Part shown: piece after piece, positions 30,449 through 34,080 of the stretch
Numbering within the stretch: position 1 is the stretch's first letter
How the letters are laid out: every line of letters starts with the position of its first letter
From: Sediminitomix flava
Lineage (GTDB): Bacteria; Bacteroidota; Bacteroidia; Cytophagales; Flammeovirgaceae
Length of the DNA stretch: 64,000 bases
Assembly (NCBI RefSeq): GCF_003149185.1
Contig: NZ_QGDO01000002.1
Span: 806,001 to 870,000 of the forward strand
Reading direction: 5' to 3'
Position numbers and translations under genes: made by a program
The notes under the pieces: model-generated
Told to the model about the DNA's origin: nothing
The model's input: only the letters and a program-made list of their open reading frames with translations
Databases searched by the model: none

Positions 30449-30622
30449 ATGTTCGGTCTATTCAAGAAAAAATCAAAAGCGGAGATACTCCAAAAGAAAT
30501 ACGAAAAGTTACTGAAAGAGTCACATGATCTATCCAAAAGTAACCGCATGAAGGGAGACCAAAAGTATGCGGAAGCAATGGAAGTACTTAAAGAAATTGA
30601 AGCATTACCAACTCAAAACTAA
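30449..30622 (+). CDS. Lacal_2735-type small protein
   Basis: A 57-residue protein: MFGLFKKKSKAEILQKKYEK at the start, then KESHDLSKSNRMKGDQKYAE and LKEIEALPTQN at the end. The composition (basic MFGLFKKK head, then two amphipathic helices) matches the small family called Lacal_2735 in Bacteroidota. The function is unknown. It ends eight bases before the SRPBCC gene and so belongs to the same operon. Confidence 0.8.
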   Translation: MFGLFKKKSKAEILQKKYEKLLKESHDLSKSNRMKGDQKYAEAMEVLKEIEALPTQN

Positions 30623-30630
30623 CTTTTCTC

Positions 30631-31116
30631 ATGGCTTTCTATCAATTCTACAGAGAACAAAAAGTTAACGCAAGCATTGAACAGGTTTGGGATTTCATTT
30701 CCTCCCCAAGAAATCTCAAGGAAATCACGCCCGACTACATGGGCTTTGATATCACCTCAAAAATGCTCCGTGAAAAAATGTACCCAGGAATGATCATCAG
30801 TTATAAAGTCAGTCCTCTTTTGGGTATTAAAACGGATTGGGTAACTGAGATCACTCATGTCAAAGACTTTGAATTCTTTGTTGACGAACAACGTGTTGGC
30901 CCTTACAGCATGTGGCATCATCAGCATCATATAGAACCAATTGATGGTGGCGTTTTGATGAAAGACATTGTTACTTATCAACCACCTATGGGATTTCTTG
31001 GTGCTATTGCCAACTCATTATTTATTGAGAGTAAACTCAATGAAATCTTTGCTTACCGATGGATAGCCGTTGAAAAACGCTTTGGTAAGTTCAATGAAAT
31101 CCCAGTTCAAAAGTAA
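30631..31116 (+). CDS. SRPBCC-family protein (cell division inhibitor SULA-like)
   Basis: 161 residues of an SRPBCC/START-like ligand-binding fold: NASIEQVWDFISSPRNLKEI, TPDYMGFDI and WHHQHHIEPIDGGVLMKDIV. No signal peptide, so probably cytosolic. The ligand is unknown. Proteins of this type often sit next to cryptochrome/photolyase genes in Bacteroidota and gamma-proteobacteria. It starts eight bases after the preceding small gene and ends 12 bases before the TIGR03643 gene. Confidence 0.85.
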   Translation: MAFYQFYREQKVNASIEQVWDFISSPRNLKEITPDYMGFDITSKMLREKMYPGMIISYKVSPLLGIKTDWVTEITHVKDFEFFVDEQRVGPYSMWHHQHHIEPIDGGVLMKDIVTYQPPMGFLGAIANSLFIESKLNEIFAYRWIAVEKRFGKFNEIPVQK

Positions 31117-31128
31117 TTTACGTTTCGT

Positions 31129-31416
31129 ATGTCAAAGTTTACATCTCTGAGTGAGAGAGATTCTGACAGGATAATTCAGATGGCTTGGGAAGACCGAACT
31201 CCCTTTGAAGCTATCGACTATCAATTCAACCTATCCGAAAGCGATGTGATTAAGTTCATGAGAGCTAATTTGAAAGCAAGTAGTTTTAGGTTGTGGCGCA
31301 AAAGAGTTGGAGAAGGTAAAAGTCAAAAACACTCGAAAAAACGTAATCCCGAAATTAAAAGGTTTAAATGCAATAGACAACGCATCATTAGCTGTAACAA
31401 GATTTCTAAACGATAA
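31129..31416 (+). CDS. TIGR03643-family protein
   Basis: 95 residues: SERDSDRIIQMAWEDRTPFE, AIDYQFNLSESDVIKFMR and SSFRLWRKRVGEGKSQKHSK, which is the family pattern. The N-terminal half looks like a helix-turn-helix (residues 10-45) and the C-terminal half is strongly basic, so nucleic-acid binding is plausible but unproven. The stop codon directly abuts the ATG of the photolyase-like gene. Confidence 0.85.
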   Translation: MSKFTSLSERDSDRIIQMAWEDRTPFEAIDYQFNLSESDVIKFMRANLKASSFRLWRKRVGEGKSQKHSKKRNPEIKRFKCNRQRIISCNKISKR

Positions 31417-32517
31417 ATGTTCTCTACAGATTACCAAAATATTGCCCAAAAAGTAAAGACACTTGATCCTGTAGGCTATTCTAGTACCAGAAACTATGTT
31501 GATGGAAATGTAAGTTATTTGTCACCATACATTTCTAGAGGAGTCATATCTACAAAACAAGTTTTGCAAAGCTTGATCGATAGAGGCTACAATCTCTATC
31601 ATCAAGAGAAGTTTATCCAAGAATTGGCTTGGAGAGACTATTGGCAACAAATATGGGTAGCCAAAGGAGATCAAATAAATACCGATCTTAAACAGCAACA
31701 AGAAAAAGTAGCTCATCATGATATCCCCACCTCCTTGATGAAAGCTACGACAGGCATTGCGGCAGTAGATCATGCAATCATTAAATTCTATGACACCGGA
31801 TACATTCACAATCATATACGTATGTACATTGCCGCAATTGCTTGTAACATTGGACAGAGTCATTGGTTTGCGCCTGCACAGTGGATGTATTACAACTTAT
31901 TAGATGCAGATTGGGCGAGCAATGCCCTTAGTTGGCAATGGGTTGCTGGAGCTAACAGCGGAAAGAAATATTATGCAGAACAGGCAAATATCAACAAGTT
32001 TTGTTACACCGAACAACATGGCACATACTTGGATATGCCCAAAGAGGATTTGCATGATGTTGATATTCCGAATGAATTAATAGATACAAGTACTTTTAAA
32101 TTTGAAACACCTTTACCCGAAAAACAACAAATTGAGGTAGACTCTGAGTTACCAACTTATATCTATAATTTCTATAACCTTGATCCACTATGGCATCAAG
32201 AAGAGAAAGCTAACAGAATACTGCTATTGGAGCCTAGCCTTTTCGAACAGTATCCTGTTTCACAAAAAAGCATTGATTTCATACTTTCACTATCCGATAA
32301 CATTGAGGGTATTCAAGTCTATATAGGTGAATTCACTGAAATGAAACAAGAATATAAGTTGAATGATATAGTCTATAAAGAACACCCACTCAACCAACAC
32401 TACAAAGGAACAGAAGAGCCTAGAGATTGGATGTTTAGTCCTAAAGGTTACTTCCCATCATTCTTCGCTTATTGGAAGAAATGTCGAAAAGAATTGAAAC
32501 AACTCGCTGAAGCTTAA
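31417..32517 (+). CDS. Photolyase/cryptochrome-like FAD-binding protein without an N-terminal antenna domain
   Basis: 366 residues. The FAD-binding helical domain of the photolyase/cryptochrome family begins almost at residue 1: SYLSPYISRGVIS, FIQELAWRDYWQQIW, VDHAIIKFYDTGYIHNHIRM, and LLDADWASNALSWQWVAGAN. The usual N-terminal alpha/beta antenna domain is missing. Instead residues from about 250 to 366 form a second part with ANRILLLEPSLFEQYPVS and IEGIQVYIGEFTEMK, compatible with a Rossmann-like fold placed after the FAD domain. DNA-repair activity or photoreceptor role cannot be decided. It is the core of a tight operon with TIGR03643, flavin reductase and DUF2256 genes. Confidence 0.85.
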   Translation: MFSTDYQNIAQKVKTLDPVGYSSTRNYVDGNVSYLSPYISRGVISTKQVLQSLIDRGYNLYHQEKFIQELAWRDYWQQIWVAKGDQINTDLKQQQEKVAHHDIPTSLMKATTGIAAVDHAIIKFYDTGYIHNHIRMYIAAIACNIGQSHWFAPAQWMYYNLLDADWASNALSWQWVAGANSGKKYYAEQANINKFCYTEQHGTYLDMPKEDLHDVDIPNELIDTSTFKFETPLPEKQQIEVDSELPTYIYNFYNLDPLWHQEEKANRILLLEPSLFEQYPVSQKSIDFILSLSDNIEGIQVYIGEFTEMKQEYKLNDIVYKEHPLNQHYKGTEEPRDWMFSPKGYFPSFFAYWKKCRKELKQLAEA

Positions 32518-32531
32518 CCAAAATTTTTACG

Positions 32532-33170
32532 ATGCATTTAACCAAAGAAGACATAGAAAACGAAGGACGTGTTAAGCGACTGAACCTTATCAATTCGATA
32601 ACAGGAGTAAAACCTGCCAACCTAATCGGTACTTACTCGGAAAACGATGGTTCAAATCTGGCCATCTTCAGCTCAGTAGTTCACCTAGGAAGTCATCCTG
32701 CATTACTCGGCTTTATTCTCAGACCACAACATGAAGTGTGTCGTCATACCTACGAGAATATTCTAGAAACGGGGGTATTTACGATCAATAGAGTCCATCA
32801 AGAATTTATCGATAAGGCACATTACACTTCTGCTAAGTTTGAAAGAGAATTATCAGAATTTGAAGAATGCCAACTCACAGAAGAATATATAGAAGGTTTT
32901 CAAGCTCCTTTTGTCAAAGAAAGTCAGGTGAAATTAGGTATGCGTTACCTAGAAACTATTCCGATTCCAATCAATGATACGATGATGGTCATCGGACAGA
33001 TTGAACACTTGATTGTACCAGACCATGCTGTAGATGAAAAAGGACTTATAGACCTAAGTAGTACTGAAGATGTAGGTATAGGAGGACTAAATGCTTATTA
33101 CGCATTGGAGAAAGTCGGTCAATTTCCTTACGCTCGACCTCACGAAGTGCCCGAATTCAAAAAGGTATAA
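32532..33170 (+). CDS. Flavin reductase-like FMN-binding protein
   Basis: 212 residues of the flavin reductase-like/FMN-binding split barrel: GVKPANLIGTYSENDGSNLA at residues 26-45, FSSVVHLGSHPALLGFILRP and FTINRVHQEFIDKAHYTSA. Such proteins bind FMN and reduce or transfer electrons to flavin; a natural role here would be supplying reduced flavin to the adjacent FAD protein, which is inference. It starts 14 bases after the photolyase-like gene and ends three bases before the DUF2256 gene. Confidence 0.85.
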   Translation: MHLTKEDIENEGRVKRLNLINSITGVKPANLIGTYSENDGSNLAIFSSVVHLGSHPALLGFILRPQHEVCRHTYENILETGVFTINRVHQEFIDKAHYTSAKFERELSEFEECQLTEEYIEGFQAPFVKESQVKLGMRYLETIPIPINDTMMVIGQIEHLIVPDHAVDEKGLIDLSSTEDVGIGGLNAYYALEKVGQFPYARPHEVPEFKKV

Positions 33171-33173
33171 ACA

Positions 33174-33365
33174 ATGAAAAAGCAACACCTTCCCACCAAG
33201 ATTTGTCCCGTATGTAACCGAAGTTTTACATGGCGCAAGAAATGGGCAAAAGATTGGGATGAAGTAAAATATTGCAGTGAAAGGTGTAAAAGAAATAAAA
33301 ACAAGAGAGATAATTCAAACGCTACAAACACACATCATGTACTTAGAACAGATCTAGCTGTTTAA
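33174..33365 (+). CDS. DUF2256 zinc-ribbon protein
   Basis: 63 residues: [20 protein letters not shown], then [12 protein letters not shown]. The CPVC and CSERC pairs form a treble-clef or zinc-ribbon unit, the DUF2256 hallmark. The C-terminal 20 residues are variable. It is the last gene of the photolyase-like operon, followed by a terminator. Confidence 0.9.
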
Positions 33366-33373
33366 TTTTTAGA

Positions 33374-33400
33374 GAGGAGCAACCTGTTAGGTTGTTTCTC
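33374..33400 (+). terminator. Terminator of the photolyase-like operon
   Basis: An 11-bp stem with two G-T pairs (33374-33384 with 33390-33400) followed by TTTTGTTTT, eight bases after the DUF2256 stop. Confidence 0.85.
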
Positions 33401-33498
33401 TTTTGTTTTATAGACACCTTACAGTCTAGTTTACAAAATCCTTTTGTTAGTTATTTTTATAATTACATTTCAATACCCTAAACTATTTTTTCTTCTCC

Positions 33499-34080
33499 AT
33501 GGAAAATCTCAAATCGTATTTATCTACTATATCTCCTATCTCTGAAGAAACATGGACTGCCGTATCTCAGCTCTTCACTTTTGAGCAACTCAATGAAAAA
33601 GAATTCTTTATTGAAGAAAACAAGTATGCTGAAAAAATAGCATTTCTTGAAGAAGGCTGTGTTCGTGCATTTTTCACAAATAACGAAGCCAAAGAATATA
33701 ACAAGCAATTCTTTGTCGCTCCGAGTCTGATCGGGGCTTACACCTCTCTTCTGACCAAAACACCTAATCTAATTCCTCAACAAGCACTCACTGAGTGTAA
33801 AATATGGATAGCTGACTTCAATGAACTTGAAAAAATGTATGAACTATATCATGACCTAGAACGCTTAGGAAGAAAAATAGCTGAATTCTACTTTCTTGAG
33901 AAAGAGAAAAAAGAGCTAGAAATGGCACTTCAAAATGCAACCGAACGCTATCTGAAATTCAGAAAACAATTTCCAAACCTAGAACAAGTCATCCCTCAAT
34001 ATCACATTGCTTCTTACCTAGGAATTTCAGCTACTCAACTCAGTAGGCTTCGCAAAAACTTACATACGGTCAACTACTAA
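33499..34080 (+). CDS. Crp/Fnr-family transcriptional regulator
   Basis: 193 residues with an N-terminal cyclic-nucleotide-binding-like beta barrel (about 20-110: FFIEENKYAEKIAFLEEGCV) and a C-terminal helix-turn-helix (PQYHIASYLGISATQLSRLR). The phosphate-binding cassette of true cAMP receptors (RxxxAxxxxG) is not recognisable, so the effector is probably not cAMP. Many Bacteroidota carry such proteins next to the gene they control; here the next gene is a secreted SMP-30-like lipoprotein 70 bases downstream, and the photolyase-like operon lies upstream. Confidence 0.85.
   Translation: MENLKSYLSTISPISEETWTAVSQLFTFEQLNEKEFFIEENKYAEKIAFLEEGCVRAFFTNNEAKEYNKQFFVAPSLIGAYTSLLTKTPNLIPQQALTECKIWIADFNELEKMYELYHDLERLGRKIAEFYFLEKEKKELEMALQNATERYLKFRKQFPNLEQVIPQYHIASYLGISATQLSRLRKNLHTVNY

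Follow-up and report, generated by a model that had tools for sequence, protein, structure and literature searches.

The window analysed, a 64,000-nucleotide stretch of the Sediminitomix flava genome (NZ_QGDO01000002.1, positions 806,001 to 870,000), contains a compact cluster of six ORFs, all on the + strand and separated by gaps of 8, 12, 0, 14 and 3 nt. The first three encode a 57-aa DUF6435 (Lacal_2735) small protein (30449..30622; PF20027, 27.8 bits against a cut-off of 26.9; NF033487, 82.5 bits), a 161-aa SRPBCC protein of the PF03364 type (30631..31116; 28.3 bits, cut-off 23.4) and a 95-aa DUF2805 (TIGR03643) protein (31129..31416; 118.7 bits in Pfam, 114.7 bits in NCBIfam). These are followed by a 366-aa protein, PHRL (31417..32517; PF03441, FAD_binding_7), assigned from its family match, model and residues to the inverted-topology (NewPHL/SPL-type) photolyases, a 212-aa flavin reductase-like protein (32532..33170; PF01613, 65.6 bits), and a 63-aa cysteine-rich, zinc-ribbon-like DUF2256 protein (33174..33365; PF10013, 80.5 bits). 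A predicted intrinsic terminator hairpin of 15 pairs and -19.1 kcal/mol follows on the same strand (33371..33403; z -6.41, with 0/200 shuffles equally stable). A preliminary description of the locus had reported six genes spaced by 0 to 15 bases and closed by a terminator, in agreement with this layout, and the families that it named (SRPBCC, TIGR03643, flavin reductase and DUF2256) were all matched in the Pfam and NCBIfam searches.

The same description called the fourth protein photolyase-like, a label that missed two features: the PF03441 match is confined to the first half of PHRL (aa 66-195), and the last ~130 aa match no Pfam or NCBIfam family above cut-off. In the AlphaFold (AF2) model of PHRL (pLDDT 94.5, pTM 0.91) the FAD domain begins at residue 1, and aa 1-223 (31417..32085), the FAD/catalytic domain, align mostly with photolyase FAD domains (VIA-align, Z 13.3-16.4). 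Row 6 of this alignment list is a trypanosome mitoribosomal protein (7pub_Ff, Z 15.5). Neither PF00875, the N-terminal antenna domain of class I CPD photolyases, nor PF04244, the N-terminal domain of FeS-BCP / DPRP (6-4) photolyases, gave a match in PHRL at E up to 1. Unlike DASH (TIGR02765), PHRL has the FAD domain first, and it scored 57.4 bits with the TIGR02765 model, below the cut-off of 317.05. An ordinary class I photolyase was ruled out by the N-terminal FAD domain together with the lack of a PF00875 match, and a truncated or broken photolyase by the relatives found across Bacteroidota, which share the length and ends of PHRL.

Residues W72, R73, H131, N132, R135, W150, D163, D165, N169, W173 and W175 are present in 97/97 PHRL sequences, and the FAD-site residues among them are invariant also in comparison with canonical rows; by this sequence evidence, PHRL is predicted to bind FAD. 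Conservation extends to E69, W72, N132, M136 and W175, which align with the CPD-pocket residues of class I photolyases as assigned from the E. coli enzyme. Of the tryptophans, W173 and W150 occur in all 97 sequences and the third in none, compared with 7/7 canonical rows, which matches the ‘mere Trp dyad’ in the description of NewPHL (PMC8948257). The FeS motif C..C..C after WxW, by which FeS-type SPL and Phr4-Phr6 are recognized, occurs in 0/97 PHRL rows versus 5/5 rows from Deinococcus and L051.

In a tree built on trimmed domains, with the short row can_L033 left out and the long row hostB_C2 included, the 13 PHRL rows fall into a starred group (99/99) that excludes four alphaproteobacterial relatives. 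Support for the reversed proteins as a single clade is only 58/11, the reversed comparison rows being alphaproteobacterial and Deinococcus relatives only, and relatives from other phyla were sampled through plasmid records only. The recurring surroundings comprise DUF6435, DUF2452 or SRPBCC, DUF2805, PHRL and a second photolyase, together with flavin reductase, DUF2256 and a DPRP (6-4) photolyase, the full set not being present in every locus. Partners within 4.5 kb were counted in 60 loci of relatives, each offering 4.5 kb or more in either direction, and 55 of these loci contain at least one partner gene, a recurrence judged far beyond chance: DUF2256 in 41, DUF2805 in 34, flavin reductase in 17, DUF6435 in 13, DUF2452 in 6 and SRPBCC, as detected, in 3. 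Only 1/171 partners, a flavin reductase, lies on the opposite strand. The preliminary description's claim that several of these families recur beside photolyase genes thus holds for DUF2256 and DUF2805, but much less for SRPBCC and flavin reductase. Its proposal of a flavin-based light or DNA-repair module, which overlooked the reversed domain order, is supported by co-occurrence reaching far beyond close relatives, and this removes the first objection that it had itself raised, that co-occurrence might stop there.

The distribution of PHRL was surveyed in 296 genomes. DUF2256 and DPRP are present in 17/17 PHRL genomes and DUF2805 in 14/17. Among genomes with DUF2256, DASH is found in 2/17 with PHRL versus 64/77 without (Fisher p 3.9e-8), and the near-exclusion persists when counted by genus (2/13 versus 33/43, p 1.2e-4), although these tests overstate independence because the genomes are related by descent. 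DUF2256 lies within 6 kb of DASH in 38/66 genomes with both, within 6 kb of PHRL in 12/17, and near both in none; in Bacteroidota, the reversed-domain photolyase and DASH thus tend to alternate beside DUF2256. The Sediminitomix flava genome is one of the two exceptions in which PHRL and DASH coexist, with a borderline DASH (317.1 against the cut-off of 317.05), and strict DASH replacement therefore fails there. DASH is described as a single-strand photolyase (PMC9649867), and because of its near-exclusion among DUF2256 genomes, PHRL most likely fills this single-strand photolyase slot, an apparent common position beside DUF2256 and DPRP.

The six genes probably constitute a photoreactivation operon, the core of which is a photolyase of the NewPHL/SPL kind. 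In the proposed enzyme, the N-terminal FAD domain would hold a complete flavin site and a CPD-type pocket, and the antenna-type alpha/beta domain would have moved to the C-terminus. Using blue light, PHRL would most likely reverse cyclobutane pyrimidine dimers, with single-stranded DNA as the probable substrate, taking the part played by DASH cryptochrome in related genomes, and its FAD may be reduced via the Trp dyad, possibly with the help of the flavin reductase. We infer roles in the operon for DUF2805, DUF2256, SRPBCC and flavin reductase, with DUF2805 and DUF2256 as putative nucleic-acid or enzyme partners. A more tentative suggestion, which we consider possible but doubtful, is that DUF2256, together with DUF2805, works as an accessory factor dedicated to the single-strand photolyase slot and serves both DASH and NewPHL, two topologically different proteins that would replace each other at one locus; DUF2256 might then present single-stranded lesion DNA or hold the photolyase at stalled forks. 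The operon gives DUF2805 (TIGR03643) and DUF2256, widely conserved small families that are uncharacterised, a concrete photoreactivation context open to testing.

An unlikely alternative, though the strongest of those considered, is that PHRL acts on double-stranded DNA, RNA or 6-4 products and that the exchange with DASH is a lineage effect. The shared descent of the genomes is in keeping with this, as are the VIA alignments, in which prokaryotic (6-4) photolyases are nearest to both PHRL domains (for the FAD domain, within ties). By contrast, the sequence-profile matches of PHRL are led by the class I CPD enzymes 1owl/1tez (E 1.8e-25), a DPRP (6-4) gene already accompanies PHRL in every one of its genomes, and the near-exclusion of DASH survives counting by genus.

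It is rather improbable that PHRL is a cryptochrome-like light sensor without repair function, with DUF2805 as its DNA-binding output. DUF2805 does lie directly upstream (in 42/50 pairs found within 300 nt, the distance between its end and the first PHRL start is -7 to +4 nt), and the preliminary description considered it HTH-like and basic, putatively a nucleic-acid partner; a sensor of this kind, however, fits poorly with the retained CPD-pocket residues, with other photolyases as PHRL neighbours, and with the exchange of PHRL for DASH, given the description of the latter as a single-strand photolyase (PMC9649867).

The reading of PHRL as an inverted-topology photolyase also draws on the C-terminal alpha/beta (antenna-type, ‘Z’) domain (aa 238-366; 32128..32514), which was modelled alone with pLDDT 94.6. 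Rows 1-13 of its VIA realignment are photolyases and cryptochromes only, headed by five prokaryotic (6-4)-type photolyase N-terminal domains (Z 7.5-7.8, so that VIA Z for this domain stays below 8), and the best other row has Z 6.3. A chain of hhalign comparisons links the PHRL C-domain to those of Deinococcus and L051 (P 0.0016, 101 columns), and these to canonical antenna domains (P 0.00047, 85 columns), with an SDR control at P 0.08-0.37. In two Deinococcus proteins PF03441 is succeeded by PF00875 (E 7.2e-4 and 1.0e-3), and in Deinococcus QL22 PF00875 comes next as a separate gene (E 2.3e-4), all three matches being below Pfam's 26.6-bit cut-off; PF00875 was searched for and not found in D. 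wulumuqiensis and five alphaproteobacterial relatives. Split FAD and antenna genes occur in both L051 and Deinococcus QL22. The PHRL C-domain and DPRP N-domains aligned out of register over 10 columns (P 0.019), and the comparison with alphaproteobacterial C-domains gave P 0.37. Least probable of all is an unrelated Rossmann-like domain, joined as a new partner to a truncated photolyase, as might be read from plain Foldseek, in which phosphopantetheine adenylyltransferases (PPATs) rank on top (E>0.02) with no photolyases among the listed matches, from the weak direct hhalign comparison with canonical antenna domains (P 0.088) and from HMM searches without a significant match in either direction, but which is opposed by the VIA realignment, the chain via Deinococcus with the split pair in L051, and the inverted forms described in PMC9426592. 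The order in PHRL, FAD domain first and antenna-type domain last, is accordingly well supported, though not proven, each test of the C-domain being moderate when taken singly.

Inverted topology, though unusual, has been described before under the names NewPHL and SPL, for proteins presented as single-strand CPD photolyases; in view of the forms in PMC13274461 and PMC9426592, the reversed order of PHRL could not be taken as unreported. Descriptions of NewPHL give it an inverted domain topology (PMC13274461) and a conserved Asn beside FAD (PMC12083526), and PHRL resembles NewPHL, as so described, in both respects and in the Trp dyad, while differing in belonging to a Bacteroidota branch that has a distinct conserved operon. 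Of the traits by which NewPHL/SPL is recognized, four were found for PHRL: inverted order, conserved FAD residues, Trp dyad and near-exclusion of DASH. NewPHL is reported to substitute for DASH (Emmerich et al. 2020).

Short photolyase-like proteins (SPL; Xu et al. 2021) are described as having no N-terminal alpha/beta domain and as having FAD and pocket regions resembling class I/III (PMC9649867, PMC9178010, PMC9498864). PHRL shares these features; it differs from SPL, as reported, in carrying an equivalent of the missing domain at its C-terminus. This adds to the evidence that the second domain of ‘short’ photolyases can be present after all, at the opposite terminus or encoded by the adjacent gene, a point relevant to the view of these proteins as primitive ancestors. 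Reversed order is also described for the picocyanobacterial Phr7, Phr6 and split Phr4+Phr5 (PMC9426592), the last of which parallels the split genes of L051 and Deinococcus QL22. According to that account, Phr7, like PHRL, has no FeS cysteines, whereas Phr4/6 carry them, and its section 5 names no DUF2805 or DUF2256 partners. Within the collection of papers searched, none combined DUF2256 with photolyase and, for photolyase with circular permutation, no listed title concerned a permuted photolyase; the available portion of PMC11362059 contains nothing on a reversed-domain photolyase class. In proteorhodopsin-bearing Flavobacteriia, photolyase and ‘photolyase-related’ genes are described in proximity (PMC5932025), a possible counterpart of the PHRL operon. 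A rhodopsin gene was observed near PHRL in some loci.

The preliminary description of a close-packed cluster of six genes closed by a terminator was borne out by six ORFs, all on the plus strand and separated by gaps of 8, 12, 0, 14 and 3 nt, and by a hairpin at the operon end (33371-33403, z -6.41 vs shuffles). Domain search likewise recovered the families named there (SRPBCC, TIGR03643, photolyase-like, flavin reductase and DUF2256), the six ORFs matching DUF6435/Lacal_2735, PF03364 (SRPBCC-type), DUF2805/TIGR03643, PF03441, PF01613 and DUF2256. A sigma-70-type promoter scan gave 12 sites against an expected 10.4, in line with chance, and thus no promoter is claimed. Directly 3' of the terminator, 33499-34080 encodes a possible Crp/Fnr-like regulator, with a PF00027 match below its cut-off.

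The fourth gene encodes a 366-aa FAD protein (31417-32517), which together with its relatives is designated PHRL. In this protein PF03441 covers only aa 66-195, no domain was matched N-terminal of it, and over the final ~130 aa no family exceeds its cut-off. Protein-level searching of 296 genomes from the window's phylum, taken as Bacteroidota because one of them (G054) shares a contig region with a Balneola locus (L069) and the named relatives are nearly all Bacteroidota, found near-full-length relatives in 17 genomes (41-59% identity); ordinary photolyases gave 22-34% identity in segments of the N-terminal ~240 residues. The 17 include a copy reported as three pieces (G150), but not a split relative (G280) or a 100-aa remnant (G101). 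In a scan of named genomes, the best 80 loci have 50-62% identity across nearly the whole PHRL length; one of these (L069) repeats another (L036), and three come from MAGs with the labels Rhodobacteraceae, Opitutaceae and Gammaproteobacteria, which may be misbinned. One locus contains a 100-aa ORF (L052:7944-8246, minus strand) with 49% identity to PHRL aa 2-79, and tblastn found no more PHRL matches within the locus; it is probably a decayed copy.

The domain order of PHRL was examined by structure and by sequence. The AlphaFold2 model of the window's protein (pLDDT 94.5, pTM 0.91) was searched with VIA-align, in which aa 1-223 align mostly with FAD domains from photolyases and cryptochromes; Z spans 13.3-16.4 across the 50 listed rows, the sixth of which is a mitoribosomal protein from a trypanosome. 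For the last 129 aa, modelled alone (pLDDT 94.6), VIA rows 1-13 are all photolyases or cryptochromes, of which the five highest (7ykn, 8a1h, 8ijy, 3zxs and 6dd6) align through their N-terminal domain (Z 7.5-7.8, rmsd 2.2-2.4, 93-97 residues); the best row of any other kind, a universal stress protein domain, has Z 6.3. Because Z was below 8 and plain Foldseek ranked phosphopantetheine adenylyltransferases first (E>0.02), sequence evidence was sought.

HMM searches between the PHRL C-domain and antenna domains gave nothing significant in either direction, and direct profile comparison with canonical antenna domains was weak (P 0.088, 42 columns, in the expected register); comparison with the N-domains of DPRP, the (6-4) photolyase, gave P 0.019, out of register. 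A connection is provided by other reversed forms. The PHRL C-domain matches five C-domains from Deinococcus and locus L051 (P 0.0016, 101 columns), which in turn match canonical antenna domains (P 0.00047, 85 columns) and six alphaproteobacterial C-domains (P 0.00046), while a Rossmann (SDR) control gave P 0.08-0.37 against the five profiles; PHRL and alphaproteobacterial C-domains compared directly gave P 0.37. The antenna family PF00875 follows PF03441 in plasmid proteins of Deinococcus AJ005 (aa 300-395, E 7.2e-4) and D. psychrotolerans (aa 301-395, E 1.0e-3), both below Pfam's 26.6-bit cut-off, and was not found by domain scan in the D. wulumuqiensis protein or in any of five alphaproteobacterial proteins. 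In Deinococcus QL22 (L160:2908-4199) the FAD gene precedes an antenna gene with a 4-nt overlap (PF00875 E 2.3e-4, also below cut-off), and L051:9898-11317 (minus strand) has a similar split pair of FAD-only and antenna-only (PF00875 E 0.017) genes with a 4-nt overlap, then DUF2256. All tests combined, the reversed domain order of PHRL is well supported, not proven.

In a tree of FAD domains only (45 rows), 13 PHRL rows group together at 99/99 and the alphaproteobacterial and Deinococcus/L051 reversed forms unite at 89/79; all 22 reversed forms lie on one side of a branch supported by only 58/11. A divergent photolyase family of ~490 aa (L112:9089-10561 and 31 similar ORFs), often overlapping the PHRL end by 4 nt, forms a long branch in this tree, and its L112 member scores far under every NCBIfam cut-off. 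Published work describes split phr4+phr5, fused phr6 and a Phr7 whose FAD domain is N-terminal and Z-domain C-terminal (PMC9426592), a Trp dyad in NewPHL (PMC8948257), and SPL as a separate class (PMC9649867, PMC9178010) without an N-terminal domain (PMC9649867); the PHRL architecture is therefore already known, and the window's protein is best filed as a predicted NewPHL/SPL-type member, placed by architecture.

Among the matches listed, W72, R73, H131, N132, R135, W150, D163, D165, N169, W173 and W175 are identical in 97/97 PHRL sequences (two being the same contig), and E69 is Glu in 95/97. By alignment with E. coli photolyase, these positions correspond to the FAD site and CPD pocket, with W173 and W150 matching the first and second Trp in the electron chain. 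The third-Trp column contains Trp in 0/97 PHRL sequences listed, 0/5 Deinococcus/L051, 0/4 alphaproteobacterial and 7/7 canonical proteins, and a C..C..C motif after WxW occurs in 0/97 of those PHRL sequences versus 5/5 Deinococcus/L051 proteins. FAD in the N-terminal domain would be reduced via W173/W150 or by a cellular reductant, possibly with help from the flavin reductase; blue light would power the transfer of an electron to a CPD that is flipped into a pocket putatively built by E69, W72, N132, M136 and W175, with the C-terminal domain as a putative cap over the FAD site. DUF2805 and DUF2256 may act on DNA or on the enzyme, and 6-4 lesions would be left to DPRP.

Co-occurrence counts combine several searches, taken as covering the same 296 genomes: PHRL occurs in 17, DUF2805 in 84, DUF2256 in 94 (93 above the Pfam cut-off), DPRP in 100, DUF2256 with DPRP in 86, and DASH cryptochrome (TIGR02765) above its cut-off in 71. 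All 17 PHRL genomes contain DUF2256 and DPRP, and 14 contain DUF2805. Among the 94 DUF2256 genomes, DASH is present in 2/17 with PHRL versus 64/77 without (p 3.9e-8), and by genus in 2/13 versus 33/43 (p 1.2e-4); these p-values are indicative because genomes share descent. The distance from DUF2256 is at most 6 kb to DASH in 38/66 genomes with both, to DPRP in 31/86 and to PHRL in 12/17; in none of the 94 are PHRL and DASH both that close, and 38/94 DUF2256 genes lack all three in that range. Genus g114 has one PHRL-only and one DASH-only genome; in g21 DASH occurs whether or not PHRL is present, and g2 has no DASH in either case. Against a swap between DASH and PHRL, the window's genome, one of only two PHRL genomes with DASH in the sample, has a DASH-type gene (G000:C2:1257228-1258466, L054) scoring almost exactly at the family cut-off (317.1 vs 317.05), and no small partner was detected next to its DPRP, which is 262 kb away. 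No published account of the DUF2805/DUF2256 operon or the Bacteroidota DASH swap was found in the limited literature set searched.

The neighbourhood sample comprised 95 distinct loci among the matches listed (minus the window and one duplicate contig), 60 of them with at least 4.5 kb on each side. Partners within 4.5 kb in these 60 were DUF2256 (41), DPRP (36), DUF2805 (34), PF00875-type photolyase (20), flavin reductase (17), DUF6435 (13), DUF2452 (6) and SRPBCC (3), with five loci (L046, L070, L075, L092 and L107) lacking any. Of the 171 partner genes in these 60 loci, one is on the opposite strand. Across the loci listed, the end of DUF2805 falls between -7 and +4 nt relative to the first PHRL start in 42/50 pairs at most 300 nt apart, and partner families rank top in de novo clustering of neighbours, save one short-chain dehydrogenase cluster (18 loci). 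A DUF2452-type ORF (L112:7270-7680; likewise in L056 and L072) lies between DUF6435 and DUF2805, the SRPBCC slot of the window. A rhodopsin-type cluster occurs in six of the loci listed, and PF01036 was confirmed in the sole one tested (L043:4765-5505, near the photolyase cluster); a photolyase cluster enriched in Flavobacteriia bearing proteorhodopsin is described in PMC5932025.
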